40,239 bases of DNA from IMG/VR virus record IMGVR_UViG_3300048121_001020, positions 1 to 40,239 of that record; one strand, given 5' to 3'. Every line of letters begins with the position of its first letter. Position 1 is the first letter of the stretch. Shown here in pieces: positions 6,450 through 14,729 of the stretch. Origin of the DNA: a virus. Both the position numbers and the translations under genes were made by a program. The notes under the pieces are model-generated. The model saw nothing but the letters and a program-made list of their open reading frames with translations. It was not told the DNA's origin and ran no database searches.

Positions 6450-7175
6450 ATGTCAACCGAAAAAGAATTAAATACTGATAATCTCAGAGACACTCATTGG
6501 TTAGGAGAAGTTATCGATAATGTCGATCCTCTTAAAATGGGTAGATGTAAGGTTAAGGTCCTAGGTAAATATGATAATTTACCAGATGATGCTATTCCAT
6601 GGGCAACTCCTATGAATAGAGATGCAATAGGTTCACATCATGTTCCAAGAATAGGAGATATAGTTGCAGCTAGATTTGATAATGGAAATTTATATCATCC
6701 TGAATATTGGTTTCAAATAGAACAAAATCTTGATCTTAAAGAAGATATATTAGATGGAGCGGGTAATGCTGAAAACGTAATCAGCTTAGTGTATGATGCT
6801 GAAAGAAACGTAAGAATTTATCACTCAGAAGAAGATGGTCTTGTAATTACTAGAGGATTTGGCGCAAAAGAAAGACCTATAATTCAAATCGACGAAGTAG
6901 GTGATATTAAAATTTCTACGGACGATAGAATATTCATAGATTCAGGAGACGTATATTTAAGTAATACTGGTGAAAGTGGAGAAGATACTTCAGAACCTGC
7001 CGTAAGAGGTAAATCATTAGAAGCATGGTTAGATGAGTATTTAACTCTTTTTGAAAACCACATTCATCCAACTGGTGTTGGTCCATCTGGAACTGCGGTT
7101 TCATTGCCACCTACTCCATCTGGTGTTGCATCTTTAAAGAGTAAGCATCCAGACTATCAACAGGAAAATAAATAA
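6450..7175 (+). CDS. Baseplate spike, OB-fold (gp5/gpV-like, no lysozyme domain)
   Basis: This encodes 241 residues. Residues 17-91 are a clear phage spike OB-fold: WLGEVIDNVDPLKMGRCKVK, then AIPWATPM, then HHVPRIGDIVAARFDNGN and HPEYWFQI. This is the domain found at the start of T4 gp5, P2 gpV and Mu gp45. Residues 110-172 are short repeated strands, suiting a small trimeric beta-helix. Residues 190-215 contain LDEYLTLFENHIHPTGVGPS, whose H204-x-H206 resembles the HxH iron-binding apex motif of P2 gpV-type spikes. T4 gp5 carries a lysozyme domain between OB-fold and helix; none is present here, so peptidoglycan cleavage must come from elsewhere or not be needed. It follows the tube-like gene after three bases and precedes the gene at 7178 by two. 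Confidence 0.85.
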   Translation: MSTEKELNTDNLRDTHWLGEVIDNVDPLKMGRCKVKVLGKYDNLPDDAIPWATPMNRDAIGSHHVPRIGDIVAARFDNGNLYHPEYWFQIEQNLDLKEDILDGAGNAENVISLVYDAERNVRIYHSEEDGLVITRGFGAKERPIIQIDEVGDIKISTDDRIFIDSGDVYLSNTGESGEDTSEPAVRGKSLEAWLDEYLTLFENHIHPTGVGPSGTAVSLPPTPSGVASLKSKHPDYQQENK

Positions 7176-8939: not shown

Positions 8940-10268
8940 ATGTCAACAAAGACAACTCAAAAACAAAAGAGACCAAGACTCTCTACCACGACAAAGCTTG
9001 TAGAAGCTAATCAAGAAACAGAAGTTAAAGTAGAAACTTCTTTAAAATCAACAAATCCCGAAAAAGTTAAACCTGGCCCAGACACAGATTTTCTAGATGA
9101 AAATGGAGAATTCATGTGGGATCTTTACCAGGCGGATTGTCCTACTAAGTTTAGAAAACCAAATCCACATATTAAAGTACCTAAAGGTGTAAAGGTATAC
9201 AGTAGGGAGCCGTATGCCCAGGAGTTATTTGACTTAATGGAAGGACATTCACTGGCATCTAACACTCTATATTCTCTTAATATCGGTGAAAGCTACACTG
9301 GAAAGGTATATGGAATAGACACCGAGTGGGCTTCAATCGACGTAGGCTATAGAGAATTGATTTACGTAGATTTATCAAGAGAAACTCCAGAAGTAAAAGA
9401 ACTTTTAAAAGAAGGAGTTGAAGTTGATGTTCAGTTAATAGCTGACACGTCAATGAATGTTAAAAAATACATGATAGGTTCCGTAGCGGCAGGTCTTAAG
9501 ACAAAGGTTGTTAAAGAGATTGTAGCTTCAATAGATGATGGAAATACAGCGTATAGCGGTATTGTTAGTAAAATGATTCCAGGTGGAGGATATATTGTAG
9601 AGGTTCAAGGTGTTGATTGCTTTATGCCGGGTTCTTTAGCTGGCGTAAATAAATTACATAACTTTGAGTCTATTATTAATACAGAAATGTATGTAGTTCC
9701 TGTTAGTTATTCTGAAGAAAAAGGAACAGTCGTTGTTTCTCATAGAGCTTATTTAAGAGCACTTATCCCCAACACTATTAAAAATATTCAAGAAGATATT
9801 ACAGTAGAAAGAATAGGCCACGTTACTGGCTCTGCGAAATATGGAGTATTTGTTGAATTTGAAGGATGCTTAACTGGAATGATTCACGTTAACGACCTAG
9901 ATACTGAAACTTCAAAAGCACACAGAGACAGGTCTTTAGAGCCAGGTACTGAAATAAAATTCTATGTTAAAGAAGTTATTAATGAAAGAAAAATAACGTT
10001 AGTACAGGGTTCTCCAGCGGAAAAGAAGGTCGATCCATGGGAAGGTATTTCTTCAAGATACAATAAAAAAACTGAGGTAGTTGGTGTTGTAAAATCTACT
10101 AAAGACTATGGTTTATTTGTAGAAATAGAAGAAGGTGTAGTTGGATTATTACACATATCCGAGTTTCCTGATAATATAGATATTAAAGATATTTCTAAAG
10201 GTGCAGATATTACTGTTCAAGTGATCAGAGTTGAAGAAGATACTAGAAAAGTATTCCTTAAACTATAA
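8940..10268 (+). CDS. Ribosomal protein S1-like protein with four S1 domains
   Basis: This encodes 442 residues. Four S1/OB RNA-binding domains can be read: about 116-181 (TGKVYGIDTEWASIDVGYRE), 203-268 (YSGIVSKMIPGGGYIVEVQG, then CFMPGSLAG), 288-356 (GHVTGSAKYGVFVEFEGCLT, then GMIHVNDL), and 377-442 (GVVKSTKDYGLFVEIEEGVV, then GLLHISEF). The last two are textbook: G-x-V-x-x-x-x-x-[YF]-G-x-F-V then G-[LM]-[IL]-H. Domain 2 has the Cys-Phe-Met-Pro-Gly-Ser seen in the second domain of bacterial S1. The first 110 residues are basic, disordered, then helical (EPYAQELFDLMEGH), possibly the ribosome-docking part. Cellular S1 usually has four to six domains and brings mRNA to the 30S subunit. It has its own promoter-like element and terminator. 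Tex- or PNPase-type enzymes also contain S1 domains, but no catalytic domain is present. Confidence 0.88.
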   Translation: MSTKTTQKQKRPRLSTTTKLVEANQETEVKVETSLKSTNPEKVKPGPDTDFLDENGEFMWDLYQADCPTKFRKPNPHIKVPKGVKVYSREPYAQELFDLMEGHSLASNTLYSLNIGESYTGKVYGIDTEWASIDVGYRELIYVDLSRETPEVKELLKEGVEVDVQLIADTSMNVKKYMIGSVAAGLKTKVVKEIVASIDDGNTAYSGIVSKMIPGGGYIVEVQGVDCFMPGSLAGVNKLHNFESIINTEMYVVPVSYSEEKGTVVVSHRAYLRALIPNTIKNIQEDITVERIGHVTGSAKYGVFVEFEGCLTGMIHVNDLDTETSKAHRDRSLEPGTEIKFYVKEVINERKITLVQGSPAEKKVDPWEGISSRYNKKTEVVGVVKSTKDYGLFVEIEEGVVGLLHISEFPDNIDIKDISKGADITVQVIRVEEDTRKVFLKL

Positions 10269-10287
10269 TCAAATCTATAATTTAGTT

Positions 10288-10315
10288 GAAAGAGCCCGAT
10301 CACTCGGGCTTTTTC
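10288..10315 (+). terminator. Intrinsic terminator after the S1-like gene
   Basis: A 12-base stem, GAAAGAGCCCGA pairing with TCGGGCTTTTTC (one G-T wobble), closes a four-base TCAC loop. The GC-rich core AGCCCGA/TCGGGCT is followed by a run of Ts. It stands 19 bases after the stop codon in the window's longest intergenic gap. The A-run before the stem may also let it act on the opposite strand. It is by far the clearest terminator in the window. Confidence 0.92.
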
Positions 10316-10337
10316 ACGTTATAGTGTATCTAACAGA

Positions 10338-10346
10338 GATATATAA
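10338..10346 (+). promoter_or_regulatory. Promoter-like element GATATATAA, copy 4
   Basis: GATATATAA lies after the terminator and 27 bases before the ATG at 10374, exactly where a promoter is needed if transcription stops after the S1-like gene. Four bases later comes a perfect 10-base palindrome, AACTTAAGTT (10350-10359), which could be an operator or coincidence. Confidence 0.6.
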
Positions 10347-10373: not shown

Positions 10374-11669
10374 ATGAATAATATTAATAATTCAGACATA
10401 TTAAAGAATGCACTAGTAGGCGTTGAATTTGAATTTTATTCTAATAAGGATATCGATACGACTGCTAAGGAATTAGCGGGTCTTTTAGGTAAAAAGATTA
10501 GAGTAGAAGCAAAGGCACATAGTGATTTTGAAGTTACAAGAGATGAGTTTAAAATTGAACCTGATATGTCAGGTGGTGAAAAACTAATGGAACTTGTAAC
10601 TGGTGCACAGCCATATTATGCTGCAAGGATGATGATTATTAAAGTATGTAAATGGATAGAAGAAAATGGATATACAAATGATAGAAGTTCTATTCACTTA
10701 AACCTTTCTTTCGATACTGATAAAATAGAAAATAAGCATAGAATATCTAAGATGAATGTTCTTAAATTTATTTTAGATTTTAAAGAAAGTCAAGTCTTTA
10801 AGTTTTTTCCTGAAAGAAAGGATTCTGCATACGCAAAATCAATCAAATTCGTTCTACCCAAGTCAGATACTTATTTCTACGATGGATTAAATATTACTCC
10901 TAGTAATTTCATATATCCTGATTCTAAATATTATGGAATTAACTTTGAAAAAAGACATAAGAATTATTTAGAATTTAGATATCTCGGTGGAGAAGATTGG
11001 GAAAAGAAAACTTCTAAGATTCTACAAATGCTAGATCTTTTCATAACTCAATTGTGGAATAGTACAAGTGGAGTTCAATTTAATAATCTTAATTCTATAG
11101 AACTTAGAAAAATTCTTGCTAAGAATGAAAGAATTATAAAGGCTAGAAAAGATTGGAAAACTATTAATACAGGTTGGAATCAAGATGTTAAATTAACGGT
11201 TGATTTAAATGACAATGAAAAGATAATAGATTTACACTGGCCTAATATTAGGGAAAGAGTTCTTAGGTTATTTACTCATGGTGAATTAACAAAAGGACAT
11301 ATTAACTATGATGCCGATAATGGTACAATTCAAGTTGATCACGGTAACTTATCATATTGTGTAGAATTAGAAGGATATGAATTTGTAAGATGTTCTTTGA
11401 GAGGAGAATTTACAAATTGCGATTTCTTCGGATGTGATATAAATGGATCCGATATACACACTTGTAATTTTTATCAATCTACTCAAATTAATTCCTCTAA
11501 ATTAGAAAGTTCTTATGTTCATCAGTCATGTGTATTAAAAGACTGTTACATATATGGAAATGGAATAATGAAAGGGACGATGCAAGGTGGTATATTTAGA
11601 GATGGTAAATATGATAAAAGAACCGCAAGGTTTGACAATACTGAAAAAATACTTTATACAGAAGTTTAA
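10374..11669 (+). CDS. Amidoligase-like (glutamine-synthetase-fold) enzyme with pentapeptide-like C-terminus
   Basis: This encodes 431 residues. The first 230 match the GS-like amidoligase (COOH-NH2 ligase) pattern: G16-x-E18-x-E20 in LVGVEFEF; KIEPDMSGG then LMELVTG (D64, E73); SSIHLNLSF (H108, N110); and YLEFRYLGG (E200, R202). In this family these residues hold ATP-Mg and the substrate, and the enzymes join a carboxylate to an amine to form amide or isopeptide bonds. Residues about 328-410 form a different domain with near five-residue periodicity and regular cysteines (C340, C349, C354, C364, C386, C391), as in pentapeptide right-handed helices (CSLRGEFTNCDFFGCDINGS). It lies between hub and wedge genes, directly after the S1-like unit. 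Substrate is unknown: a virion protein, the host envelope or a ribosomal protein are all possible. Confidence 0.75.
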   Translation: MNNINNSDILKNALVGVEFEFYSNKDIDTTAKELAGLLGKKIRVEAKAHSDFEVTRDEFKIEPDMSGGEKLMELVTGAQPYYAARMMIIKVCKWIEENGYTNDRSSIHLNLSFDTDKIENKHRISKMNVLKFILDFKESQVFKFFPERKDSAYAKSIKFVLPKSDTYFYDGLNITPSNFIYPDSKYYGINFEKRHKNYLEFRYLGGEDWEKKTSKILQMLDLFITQLWNSTSGVQFNNLNSIELRKILAKNERIIKARKDWKTINTGWNQDVKLTVDLNDNEKIIDLHWPNIRERVLRLFTHGELTKGHINYDADNGTIQVDHGNLSYCVELEGYEFVRCSLRGEFTNCDFFGCDINGSDIHTCNFYQSTQINSSKLESSYVHQSCVLKDCYIYGNGIMKGTMQGGIFRDGKYDKRTARFDNTEKILYTEV

Positions 11670-11685
11670 AAATAAATAAAACAAA

Positions 11686-12519
11686 ATGAGTGATAATATA
11701 ATAGGAAATCAGTCTAACTTAACAACTCCACCTTCATGGGACACGGAGTGTTTTAATAATTTTGTAAATGAATTAGCATCTGAAGTAACAGGATCTTGTA
11801 TGATTCCTATGAATCTTCCAAAATCAGAAGTTCAGAATATTGTTAAAAGAGCAAAGAAGTGGTTCTATAAGAATTATGAGTATTCGATGAAAGAAAACTT
11901 TATGGTTTTACCAAAAGAAATTTTTAATTCTACTTATTTTAAAAATAAAAGATCTTTTACTCTTCCAAAGATGGATCCAGTTACGGGTGGTGGAGAAGTT
12001 TATTCAGTATATGGATGTTTTGAAACTGGATCAAAGTATGCAGGTGGAACAGATATTAGATTTTCACAAGGTGATTTTGCTATCGAAAGAATGATGTACA
12101 CTGGAATGTTTGGCGGAGATGGTGTAGTAGATGCAGCAGAGAACCTTCAATATTACGTGGTTAATGAAAGTTTCTTTGATATGGCTAGACAAATTCTAGA
12201 AAACCCCATTGGCTATCACTATAACCAACTAACACATGAGATTAAATTTACTGGAGAAACCCCTAACAGAGATATTATATTAGAAGTATATGAAACAATT
12301 CCAGAGTGTGCATTATTTGAAGATGAAGCATTCTTTAGATATTGTGCTGCAAAGATTAAAATTTCATTAGGACAAAAGTTAAGTATATTTGGTTTTGCTT
12401 TACCTGGAAATATTGAAGTCAATGCAGACGCAATTCAAGGTTTAGGTGAAGGAGAACTGGAAGCATTGATTGAAGAAATAAAAACAGATGAAGGCACCGA
12501 TTGGATGATGCATTCTTAA
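11686..12519 (+). CDS. Virion structural protein (neck/baseplate-type)
   Basis: This encodes 277 residues. The layout is of a type seen in large tailed phages: an N-terminal helical part (LPKSEVQNIVKRAKKWFYKN), a central strand-rich part, the strand pair HYNQLTHEIKFTGETP followed by DIILEVYETIP, then a helical bundle with EDEAFFRYCAAKIKISLGQK and LPGNIEVNADA, and an acidic helical tail ending EEIKTDEGTDWMMHS. A membrane segment and enzyme motif are absent. It shares a unit with the amidoligase upstream (16-base A-rich gap) and ends just before the gp25 gene. A connector, neck or wedge-periphery role is likely from this shape and position, but I cannot name one T4 counterpart. Confidence 0.6.
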   Translation: MSDNIIGNQSNLTTPPSWDTECFNNFVNELASEVTGSCMIPMNLPKSEVQNIVKRAKKWFYKNYEYSMKENFMVLPKEIFNSTYFKNKRSFTLPKMDPVTGGGEVYSVYGCFETGSKYAGGTDIRFSQGDFAIERMMYTGMFGGDGVVDAAENLQYYVVNESFFDMARQILENPIGYHYNQLTHEIKFTGETPNRDIILEVYETIPECALFEDEAFFRYCAAKIKISLGQKLSIFGFALPGNIEVNADAIQGLGEGELEALIEEIKTDEGTDWMMHS

Positions 12520-12535: not shown

Positions 12536-12889
12536 ATGGAGTTTTATATAAAAGCAAAAGGAGATCCTGGATTCGATCCAAGCAAATTAGAAATTAGTTC
12601 TGAATTAGCTAGGTTAATGACACAGATAGAAACTATTCTTTTTACAAGAAGAGGTGATGTATTAGGAGATCCCGAATTTGGCGCAAATCTAGAAGATTAT
12701 GTTTATTCTTTAAGTTATAATGACTATTTATTAAAAAAGGTAGTTGCTGAACAAATTTATAAATATGCGCCTTTGGCTAGAAAATTTAATGTAACTGTTG
12801 ATGTTGATTTCACGAAAGAAGTTGATAGGCATGCAGTGTTTGTAGACATACGAATTGATAATAGATATCAATTAGGAGTTTACGTATAA
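12536..12889 (+). CDS. gp25: Baseplate wedge protein gp25-like
   Basis: This encodes 117 residues, close to the usual family length (about 110-135). The signature is plain: the helix ELARLMTQIETILFTRRGD, then DVLGDPEFGANLEDYVY (residues 41-57). These give the family's T-R-x-G-(D/E)-x-x-x-x-P-E-F-G core (T37, R39, G40, P46, E47, F48, G49). A helix (YLLKKVVAEQIYKYAPL) and two strands follow, ending in YQLGVYV. gp25 (P2 gpW) is the sheath-initiator-like part of the inner wedge: its EPR-like core joins gp6 and starts sheath polymerisation. The gp6-like gene follows after 19 bases, as in T4-like and P2-like phages. No Shine-Dalgarno sequence precedes the start; the A/T-rich element ends five bases upstream. 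Confidence 0.93.
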   Translation: MEFYIKAKGDPGFDPSKLEISSELARLMTQIETILFTRRGDVLGDPEFGANLEDYVYSLSYNDYLLKKVVAEQIYKYAPLARKFNVTVDVDFTKEVDRHAVFVDIRIDNRYQLGVYV

Positions 12890-12908: not shown

Positions 12909-14729
12909 ATGGCAGATAATAATTTTTTATCAACATCTAGAATTAAAGTTGGAGAAATGATCGACGACGTAAGATCCTATGTTACTAGGGTATACGGAGA
13001 GGTAGAAGGAGCTTTTACAACAGCTTCACCCTTTTCACAACTACTTGATGTTATTTCGCAAATAGGTAGATTGATATTCTTCTACATAGAAGACGCAACA
13101 GTTGAACAGAATATTTTAACAGCACAAAATCCAGAATCGATATATGGTTTATCTAGGCTAGCTGGTCATGATTCATTTAGAGGAGCTGCCGCTTCAGGTG
13201 AATTAAAATTAAGATTAGGTGTTTCAGGTTTAGAAGATATTGCAGGAGACGCTTTAAACATTCCTGCCAATGCTATTATAGAATGTAAAGATAACGGTCT
13301 TAGATATACTCTAAGAACTAGTAACGATCAATTTAGATTAGAAAAATCAAATTCTAATTACATATTTGTTCCAGTGGTGCAGGGTGAATATGAGTCTCAG
13401 AATTTAACATCTACCGGAGAAGCCTTTCAATCTTTTAATGTTATAACAAAAAGCATGGTAGATCATTCTCAGGTTAGAATAAAAATAAATTCAAGCCTTT
13501 GGACTAAATATGACTCTCTATATGATATGAAAAAAGGAACCCAGGGATATCTTGTCAAAACAGGTATTACGGGTGGTTTAGATATTTATTTTGGAAATGG
13601 ATCCTTTGGTGAAATCCCTGATTCAGGATCTACGATAGAAGTAGAGTATTTAAAAATAGAAGGAGCCATGGGTAATTTAAACGGTAGAGCTGATTTATCT
13701 TTTGAATTTAAAACTGAAGGAACGGATTCACTAGGAAATACGCATGATCTAAATGAATTATTAGAATCTGAATTTACAGTTGCACCTAAAATGGGAGCAA
13801 ATCCAGAAGATATTGAATTAACAAAGTTAATTGCCCCATTACAGTCACATTCATTTGTATTAGCAACTCCTGATAACTATGAGCACTTTCTTTCAAGATA
13901 TGGTATGTTTTCTTATTTAGATGCATATAACACTACAGATGATGGATATTTAGACGATGATAATGTTATCTATCTGTTCATGTTGCCTAATACTTTAAAA
14001 AAGTTACAAAATAATAAGGATTATTTTAATTTAGATACTTCTGAATTCTTTTTTACAGAAATCGAAAAAGAAGGTATTAGAGGTTTATTAGAAAAATCAG
14101 GAAGGCAAATGGTAACTACAGAAATAAAAATAGTAGATCCGAAACCACAATATTTTAGAATGGATATCAAGGTAAGATATTTTGAAGGATACACTAAAGC
14201 TAATCTTGCTACTGAAATTAGATCAAAGGTTGCAGAATATTTAATAAATATTACTAGAAGAGATAGATTACCTAAATCTGATATTGTTGCAATAGTTGAA
14301 AATATTGATGGAATAGATTCAGTTAATGTTAAGTTTACTTCTGAAAAAGAAGAAACAGCAAGAAGGTTAGGGTATTACATATCTGAAACAGTGACTGTAA
14401 CTCCTTCAACTCCAGTATTAACTGAAATAGGAAATGGTAAACAAAAGATGGTTTTCTTTAAAAGAAACGTAACTACAAAACAGGTTAATTTTGAACCTGG
14501 TGCAGCTCTTCCTGAAAACGTAATAAACCTAGATTCATTTGGCGATATCATTCTTGAAAAAGAAGAGGTTGCCTTATTCAGAGGAGGATGGTTAGACAGT
14601 AAAAATTTAATTGTGAAAGACGAAGTTAAGACCGGAGAAAAGGCTGCAATGTCAATTTATTTTGACGAACCTGCCGTGAAGAATACTATATTTGCAAAAG
14701 TTCAAGCAAAAAATAGAAAATCAATATAA
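12909..14729 (+). CDS. gp6: Baseplate wedge protein gp6-like (baseplate J family)
   Basis: This encodes 606 residues, near the size of T4 gp6 (about 660). The N-terminal helices (PFSQLLDVISQIGRLIFFYI, then EDATVEQNILTAQNPESIYG followed by LSRLAGHD) are the usual opening of gp6/gpJ-family wedge proteins. A beta-rich middle follows (FGNGSFGEIPDSGSTIEVEY). The C-terminal third has VVDPKPQYFRMDIKVRYFEG-like strands (read here as IVDPKPQYFRMDIKVRYFEG) and RDRLPKSDIVAIVENIDGID, the region that forms the inter-wedge ring in related phages. gp6 dimers make the continuous inner ring of the baseplate and bind gp25 and gp7. Placement directly after gp25 supports the call. It ends in a TAATG overlap with the small gene at 14729. 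Confidence 0.88.
   Translation: MADNNFLSTSRIKVGEMIDDVRSYVTRVYGEVEGAFTTASPFSQLLDVISQIGRLIFFYIEDATVEQNILTAQNPESIYGLSRLAGHDSFRGAAASGELKLRLGVSGLEDIAGDALNIPANAIIECKDNGLRYTLRTSNDQFRLEKSNSNYIFVPVVQGEYESQNLTSTGEAFQSFNVITKSMVDHSQVRIKINSSLWTKYDSLYDMKKGTQGYLVKTGITGGLDIYFGNGSFGEIPDSGSTIEVEYLKIEGAMGNLNGRADLSFEFKTEGTDSLGNTHDLNELLESEFTVAPKMGANPEDIELTKLIAPLQSHSFVLATPDNYEHFLSRYGMFSYLDAYNTTDDGYLDDDNVIYLFMLPNTLKKLQNNKDYFNLDTSEFFFTEIEKEGIRGLLEKSGRQMVTTEIKIVDPKPQYFRMDIKVRYFEGYTKANLATEIRSKVAEYLINITRRDRLPKSDIVAIVENIDGIDSVNVKFTSEKEETARRLGYYISETVTVTPSTPVLTEIGNGKQKMVFFKRNVTTKQVNFEPGAALPENVINLDSFGDIILEKEEVALFRGGWLDSKNLIVKDEVKTGEKAAMSIYFDEPAVKNTIFAKVQAKNRKSI

Follow-up and report, generated by a model that had tools for sequence, protein, structure and literature searches.

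The window analysed here is a 40,239-nt stretch of viral DNA (IMG/VR record IMGVR_UViG_3300048121_001020, positions 1 to 40,239). At 10374..11669 it contains an ORF encoding a 431-aa protein in which a glutamine synthetase (GS)-fold amidoligase domain is followed by a β-solenoid, apparently of pentapeptide type. The features of the locus are as follows:

6450..7175, +, baseplate spike/hub OB-domain protein (profile matches)
8940..10268, +, S1-domain protein, upstream neighbour of the ligase (PF00575, 7e-21)
10287..10316, +, terminator-like hairpin and U-run, closing the previous unit (-20 kcal/mol, z -6.2)
10338..10345, +, GATATATA, promoter-like element judged from position and strand bias, 36 nt before the ligase start codon
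10350..10359, +, AACTTAAGTT, perfect palindrome directly after GATATATA, near-exclusive to the region upstream of the ligase gene
10374..11669, +, GS-fold amidoligase and pentapeptide-type β-solenoid protein, 431 aa (ORF call, Pfam, AlphaFold)
10410..11078, +, GS-like catalytic domain, residues ~13-235 (GS fold and invariant motif residues)
11286..11666, +, right-handed β-solenoid, probably pentapeptide type, residues ~305-431 (separate model, pLDDT 93.5)
11686..12519, +, neck/head-tail adaptor-like protein, next gene after the ligase (phrog_211, 2e-10)
12536..12889, +, gp25-like baseplate wedge protein (profile matches)
12909..14729, +, gp6/Baseplate_J-like wedge protein (phrog_219, 1e-35)
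39096, tail-tube-like gene in the same window

A sequence-only reading of this DNA had placed the ORF within a baseplate cluster, and this setting was borne out by the gp25-like, gp6/Baseplate_J-like, spike OB, neck-like and tail-tube-like genes. The same reading had described a GS-fold amidoligase with the residues of COOH-NH2 ligases in order, and both descriptions held. The 431-aa protein matched Amidoligase_2 (PF12224) with 27.6 bits (Pfam cut-off, 22; E = 3.3e-6), as did 26 of 51 relatives at E ≤ 1. An AlphaFold model built from the 51-member alignment (pLDDT 90.7, pTM 0.81) was compared with known structures using VIA-align, and its residues ~1-233 matched ~50 glutamine-synthetase-family entries (Z 10.7-12.0), superposing with an rmsd of 3.1-4.2 across 177-195 residues. 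The structure prediction, which the reading had suggested as a check, returned the fold of glutamine synthetase. At E ≤ 0.001, a structure search with the model matched 47 viral entries, of which many are named amidoligase. The best of these, UniProt A0A6J5PQ40 from an uncultured Caudovirales phage, was matched over its whole length (TM 0.86/0.84), but it is 24% identical to the window protein and is uncharacterised, without an assigned function. The catalytic motifs of the window protein (G16-V-E18-F-E20, D64 and E73, H108-L-N110, and E200-F-R202) were invariant in all 51 aligned relatives. With equivalence to the GS ligands judged by the order of the motifs and the similarity in fold, E18, E20, D64, E73, H108 and E200 are putative Mg/ATP ligands and R202 is a putative substrate arginine; all of these residues were retained in 141 of 143 distinct full-length proteins. 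Comparison of the window gene with four relatives (78-96% identity) gave dN/dS values of 0.06-0.13, showing that the ligase gene is under strong purifying selection, and the GS domain was the most conserved part of the protein in lineages with an intact active site. By its family score, GS-like fold, and ordered ligand and substrate residues, the protein is a member of Amidoligase_2, and ATP-dependent amide ligation is predicted for the intact-site lineages.

The model of the C-terminal domain has a short strand about every five residues and a conserved cap motif, GGIFRxGK, in which G406, R409 and G411 are invariant. VIA-align of this domain gave Z scores of 8-9 to AlbG, MfpA and Qnr, with similar scores from other β-solenoids. 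The family profile matched a solved AlbG-type pentapeptide protein at 6e-4, and single relatives matched Pentapeptide_4 (best, 5e-6; the scores shown with cut-offs were all below them); because of these two results, the sequence evidence favours the pentapeptide type. Profile searches, also suggested by the sequence-only reading, therefore agreed with it in part, as Amidoligase_2 was matched above its cut-off whereas the Pfam pentapeptide profiles matched the window protein below theirs (E 0.17-0.27). Its cysteine-rich, pentapeptide-like ladder stood as regards the ladder and the abundance of cysteine, with seven of the eight Cys residues lying within residues 329-391, but the cysteines did not prove to be a special feature. 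They occupy the inward small-residue position of the repeats and are substituted by Ser in relatives in the 51-member alignment. Because this exchange occurs at ordinary pentapeptide-repeat positions, Cys is not a functional feature, and a cysteine ladder serving as a metal or redox device was ruled out. A DNA-mimic β-helix (Qnr/MfpA-like) is unlikely, given a net charge of -3 (family median, -4). An anchoring module common to other huge-phage β-repeat proteins was also rejected, the similarity being weak (5e-4 to 8e-4; hhalign probability 54%); the proteins compared carry WxNGxFNGG repeats. Large huge-phage proteins built of WxNGxFNGG-type β-repeats were observed at L160:3129-5198 and L161:2375-6349.

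The gene order in the window clade was fixed: spike, a variable portion, S1 protein, ligase, neck, gp25 and gp6. In Mahaphage-type genomes the cluster was rearranged, with most loci keeping recognisable tail-cluster genes near the ligase. To avoid circularity, 80 loci were gathered using the neck-like neighbour as query; the ligase was present in all 80, lying less than 400 bases from the neck gene or slightly overlapping it. It was also present in all seven loci gathered using the gp6-like gene. The S1-domain protein (8940-10268) is conserved beside the ligase within the tail cluster. In about one-quarter to one-third of loci, the gene immediately upstream of the ligase encodes a ~270-aa protein with a MSKFKTYNQFVNES-like N-terminus, for which no Pfam family was found (L051:7143-7952, L071:7160-7948 and their homologues in some of the window clade). 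The C-terminal tails of the neighbours were compared in search of a ligase substrate; some are conserved (e.g., YQQxxK in the spike and GTDWMMHS in the neck protein), but none stood out as Pup-like.

Scans of viral contigs returned more than 500 relatives, and the fusion of ligase and β-solenoid was present on hundreds of these contigs, mostly beside tail or baseplate genes; it is no oddity of a single phage. With tblastn, homologues across most of the protein were found in six records of 462-735 kb that are putatively huge/Mahaphage-type. A survey of huge phages assigns the largest of its genomes to the Mahaphage clade (PMC7162821). Each huge genome searched had one full-length copy. Atu_ph07 and SCTP-2 encode relatives of the catalytic domain that have no β-solenoid (hhalign probability 97%). 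A cellular origin was rejected, as the scan of bacterial and archaeal genomes gave a single fragmentary match, in a metagenome-assembled genome. The ligase is a core tail-cluster gene of a huge-phage group, and it can serve as a marker of this group, which includes the largest phages known. In the literature searched, no paper connected phage amidoligases with pentapeptide domains or tail clusters.

Upstream of the ligase, the hairpin at 10287-10316 was equalled in stability by none of 200 shuffles. The GATATATA element also precedes the genes at 8940, 24299, 32797 and 39691, lying 31-48 nt before them. The window has six copies in total, each of them on the coding strand; this total is not above chance. 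Across 31 related loci, 72 copies were on the coding strand versus 4, with ~30 of the 72 inside coding sequence. Position and strand suggest that GATATATA is a promoter-like element common to the ligase and tail genes. In the same 31 loci, 14 of 15 occurrences of the AACTTAAGTT palindrome sit 23-26 nt before the ligase gene, making it a possible operator. Other candidates were rejected: the T4-type late promoter TATAAATA was not above chance in frequency, sigma-70 promoters occurred at chance, and a 5′ hairpin ahead of the start codon was unstable in the window.

Two of the 143 distinct proteins, from separate lineages, had a destroyed active site; both were full-length and encoded at the same locus. 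Each dead form is one protein sequence, seen in four assemblies (L206-L209: E20D, D64S, E73S, H108K, N110D and R148Q) or two (L218/L219: G16S, E18D, D64E, E73K, E200R and R202N). The losses were separate, because L218 nests with the active-site-intact L214-L217 in the tree (support 1.0) and L206 lies elsewhere. Among themselves, the intact sisters L214-L217 are 86-88% identical in the GS domain and 70-78% in the β domain, whereas L218 is 50-53% and 54-59% identical to them, respectively, with pN well below pS in both domains. Since identity drops far more in the GS domain than in the β domain, it was chiefly the catalytic domain of L218 that was freed from constraint, and the protein was kept. 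Judged by their residues, the dead-site lineages apparently carry a pseudoenzyme. Their largest fragments (132 and 71 kb) each had one ligase match, and a second active copy could lie elsewhere in their genomes. A protein retained without catalysis must have another role, for which a structural or scaffold function in tail or neck assembly would be the simplest explanation of both retention and location. The active/dead pairs inside one lineage are a natural experiment by which catalytic and structural function can be told apart.

Taken as a whole, we give an even chance to the interpretation that this is a morphogenetic protein belonging to the tail module of a group of huge phages and doing two linked jobs, one non-catalytic and the other a predicted ATP-dependent amide ligation. 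The protein would be anchored on an intermediate of tail, baseplate or neck assembly by its β-solenoid together with the GS-domain shell. In most lineages, this GS domain would use Mg-ATP to activate a carboxylate, glutamate-like to judge from the E-x-R motif, and would then link that carboxylate to an amine, which most likely belongs to a virion protein; such a target would fit the constant linkage to tail genes. Ligation may occur during late assembly in the cytoplasm, because ATP is available there, and the non-catalytic role would be strong enough to outlast catalysis. That the ligase covalently joins or tags tail or neck proteins as a fixed assembly factor of the largest phages known, and is a purely structural pseudoenzyme in some lineages, is proposed tentatively, at somewhat less than even probability; the additional part as a tail building block or assembly helper is suggested because two branches kept the protein after active-site loss. 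Known virion cross-links, e.g., those of HK97 heads, form autocatalytically, and we know of no dedicated phage ligase that covalently modifies tail proteins. If true, such enzymatic modification would be new, and an enzyme would have been converted into a virion or assembly part.

Tail clusters can house enzymes unrelated to structure, and the ligase might be a cytoplasmic amidoligase acting on cell-wall precursors or producing a small peptide (superinfection exclusion), merely sitting among late genes. It shares its Pfam family with the cassette amidoligase of LUZ24, phiEco32 and RIO-1, a cell-wall or small-peptide role has been proposed for the podoviral relatives (PMC5498523, PMC10580990), and three of seven huge-phage records contain γ-glutamylcyclotransferase-like genes. 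However, the latter genes are far from the ligase, and GATase_6 and COOH-NH2_lig were not found in the seven records, using a LUZ24 control that was positive for both. Constant linkage to neck and baseplate genes in the window clade also argues against this role, and a pure metabolic enzyme does not readily account for retention of the protein after active-site loss, so that we consider this role unlikely. The two separate losses with full length kept, the β-solenoid and the linkage to tail genes would instead suit a protein that is chiefly a structural or scaffold component of the tail, baseplate or neck, its GS domain an exapted shell and catalysis minor. This too seems improbable, as every ligand position is kept in 141 of the 143 distinct proteins and conservation in active lineages is greatest in the GS domain.

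Very unlikely, in our estimation, is a head-internal enzyme injected with the DNA. This possibility is raised by amidoligases whose N-termini resemble T4 capsid-targeting peptides: those of Salicola phage SCTP-2, which has a tandem pair of amidoligase-like proteins starting MKFNQIKTNQINEG and MNMKFEHIKNNRTIQEGV, and that of Agrobacterium phage Atu_ph07, which starts MRWQDISSKKLTEL. The gene in Atu_ph07 is one gene from the portal gene and apparently in a virion-protein-rich region (PMC6102473; gene number inferred). The window family, however, is without a targeting peptide: the expected cut has no E, and the N-terminus leads straight into the first strand at residue 13. It is the next upstream gene that carries a targeting-like N-terminus in ~1/3 of window-family loci; these phages thus have the signal, but their ligase does not. 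In SCTP-2 (L087:10846-14606), both tandem amidoligase-like genes have targeting-like N-termini. Many ORFs of Mahaphage-type loci (L183-L202, L155-L157) also start like T4 capsid-targeting sequences (MIKTFDEFINES, MVKRYKQFINEG, MKKFSQYINEQ); a loose targeting pattern was matched by 91 of 395 ORFs in these loci versus 31 and 44 in two controls, which suggests that head-internal, possibly injected proteins are very numerous in Mahaphage-type genomes.

Viewed as a tail-module protein with a predicted ligase activity, the window family shares sequence family, motif order and GS fold with Amidoligase_2 (PF12224), reportedly treated by Iyer et al. in 2009. The compared members from LUZ24, Atu_ph07 and SCTP-2 have no pentapeptide-type domain, unlike the window family, which is also fixed in the tail cluster, includes members predicted to be dead, and had no detectable GATase or second-ligase partner. 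The podoviral cassette (LUZ24 gp16, gp18-22; phiEco32; RIO-1) combines an amidoligase of the same Pfam family with a second ligase, glutamine amidotransferase, ATP-grasp and cyclotransferase (PMC5498523). Because the glutamine amidotransferase and second ligase (GATase_6/COOH-NH2_lig) were not found in seven huge-phage records, this cell-wall cassette is a poor model for the huge-phage ligase; architecture and context differ as well, and hhalign gave no alignment of LUZ24 gp18 with the family profile. The Pup ligase PafA and the depupylase Dop belong to the same carboxylate-amine ligase superfamily and act on proteins, and PafA, which makes protein isopeptide bonds (PMC3511204), therefore provides a precedent for protein ligation within the superfamily. 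A sequence search between solved PafA/Dop and the window family gave no match, which remains compatible with kinship of fold. To our knowledge, the small C-terminal domain of PafA/Dop is not a β-solenoid, and the phages of the window family have no known Pup. Finally, AlbG, MfpA and Qnr resemble the C-terminal domain in being β-solenoids with ~5-residue rungs; unlike them, the window protein is not markedly acidic and is joined to an enzyme domain.
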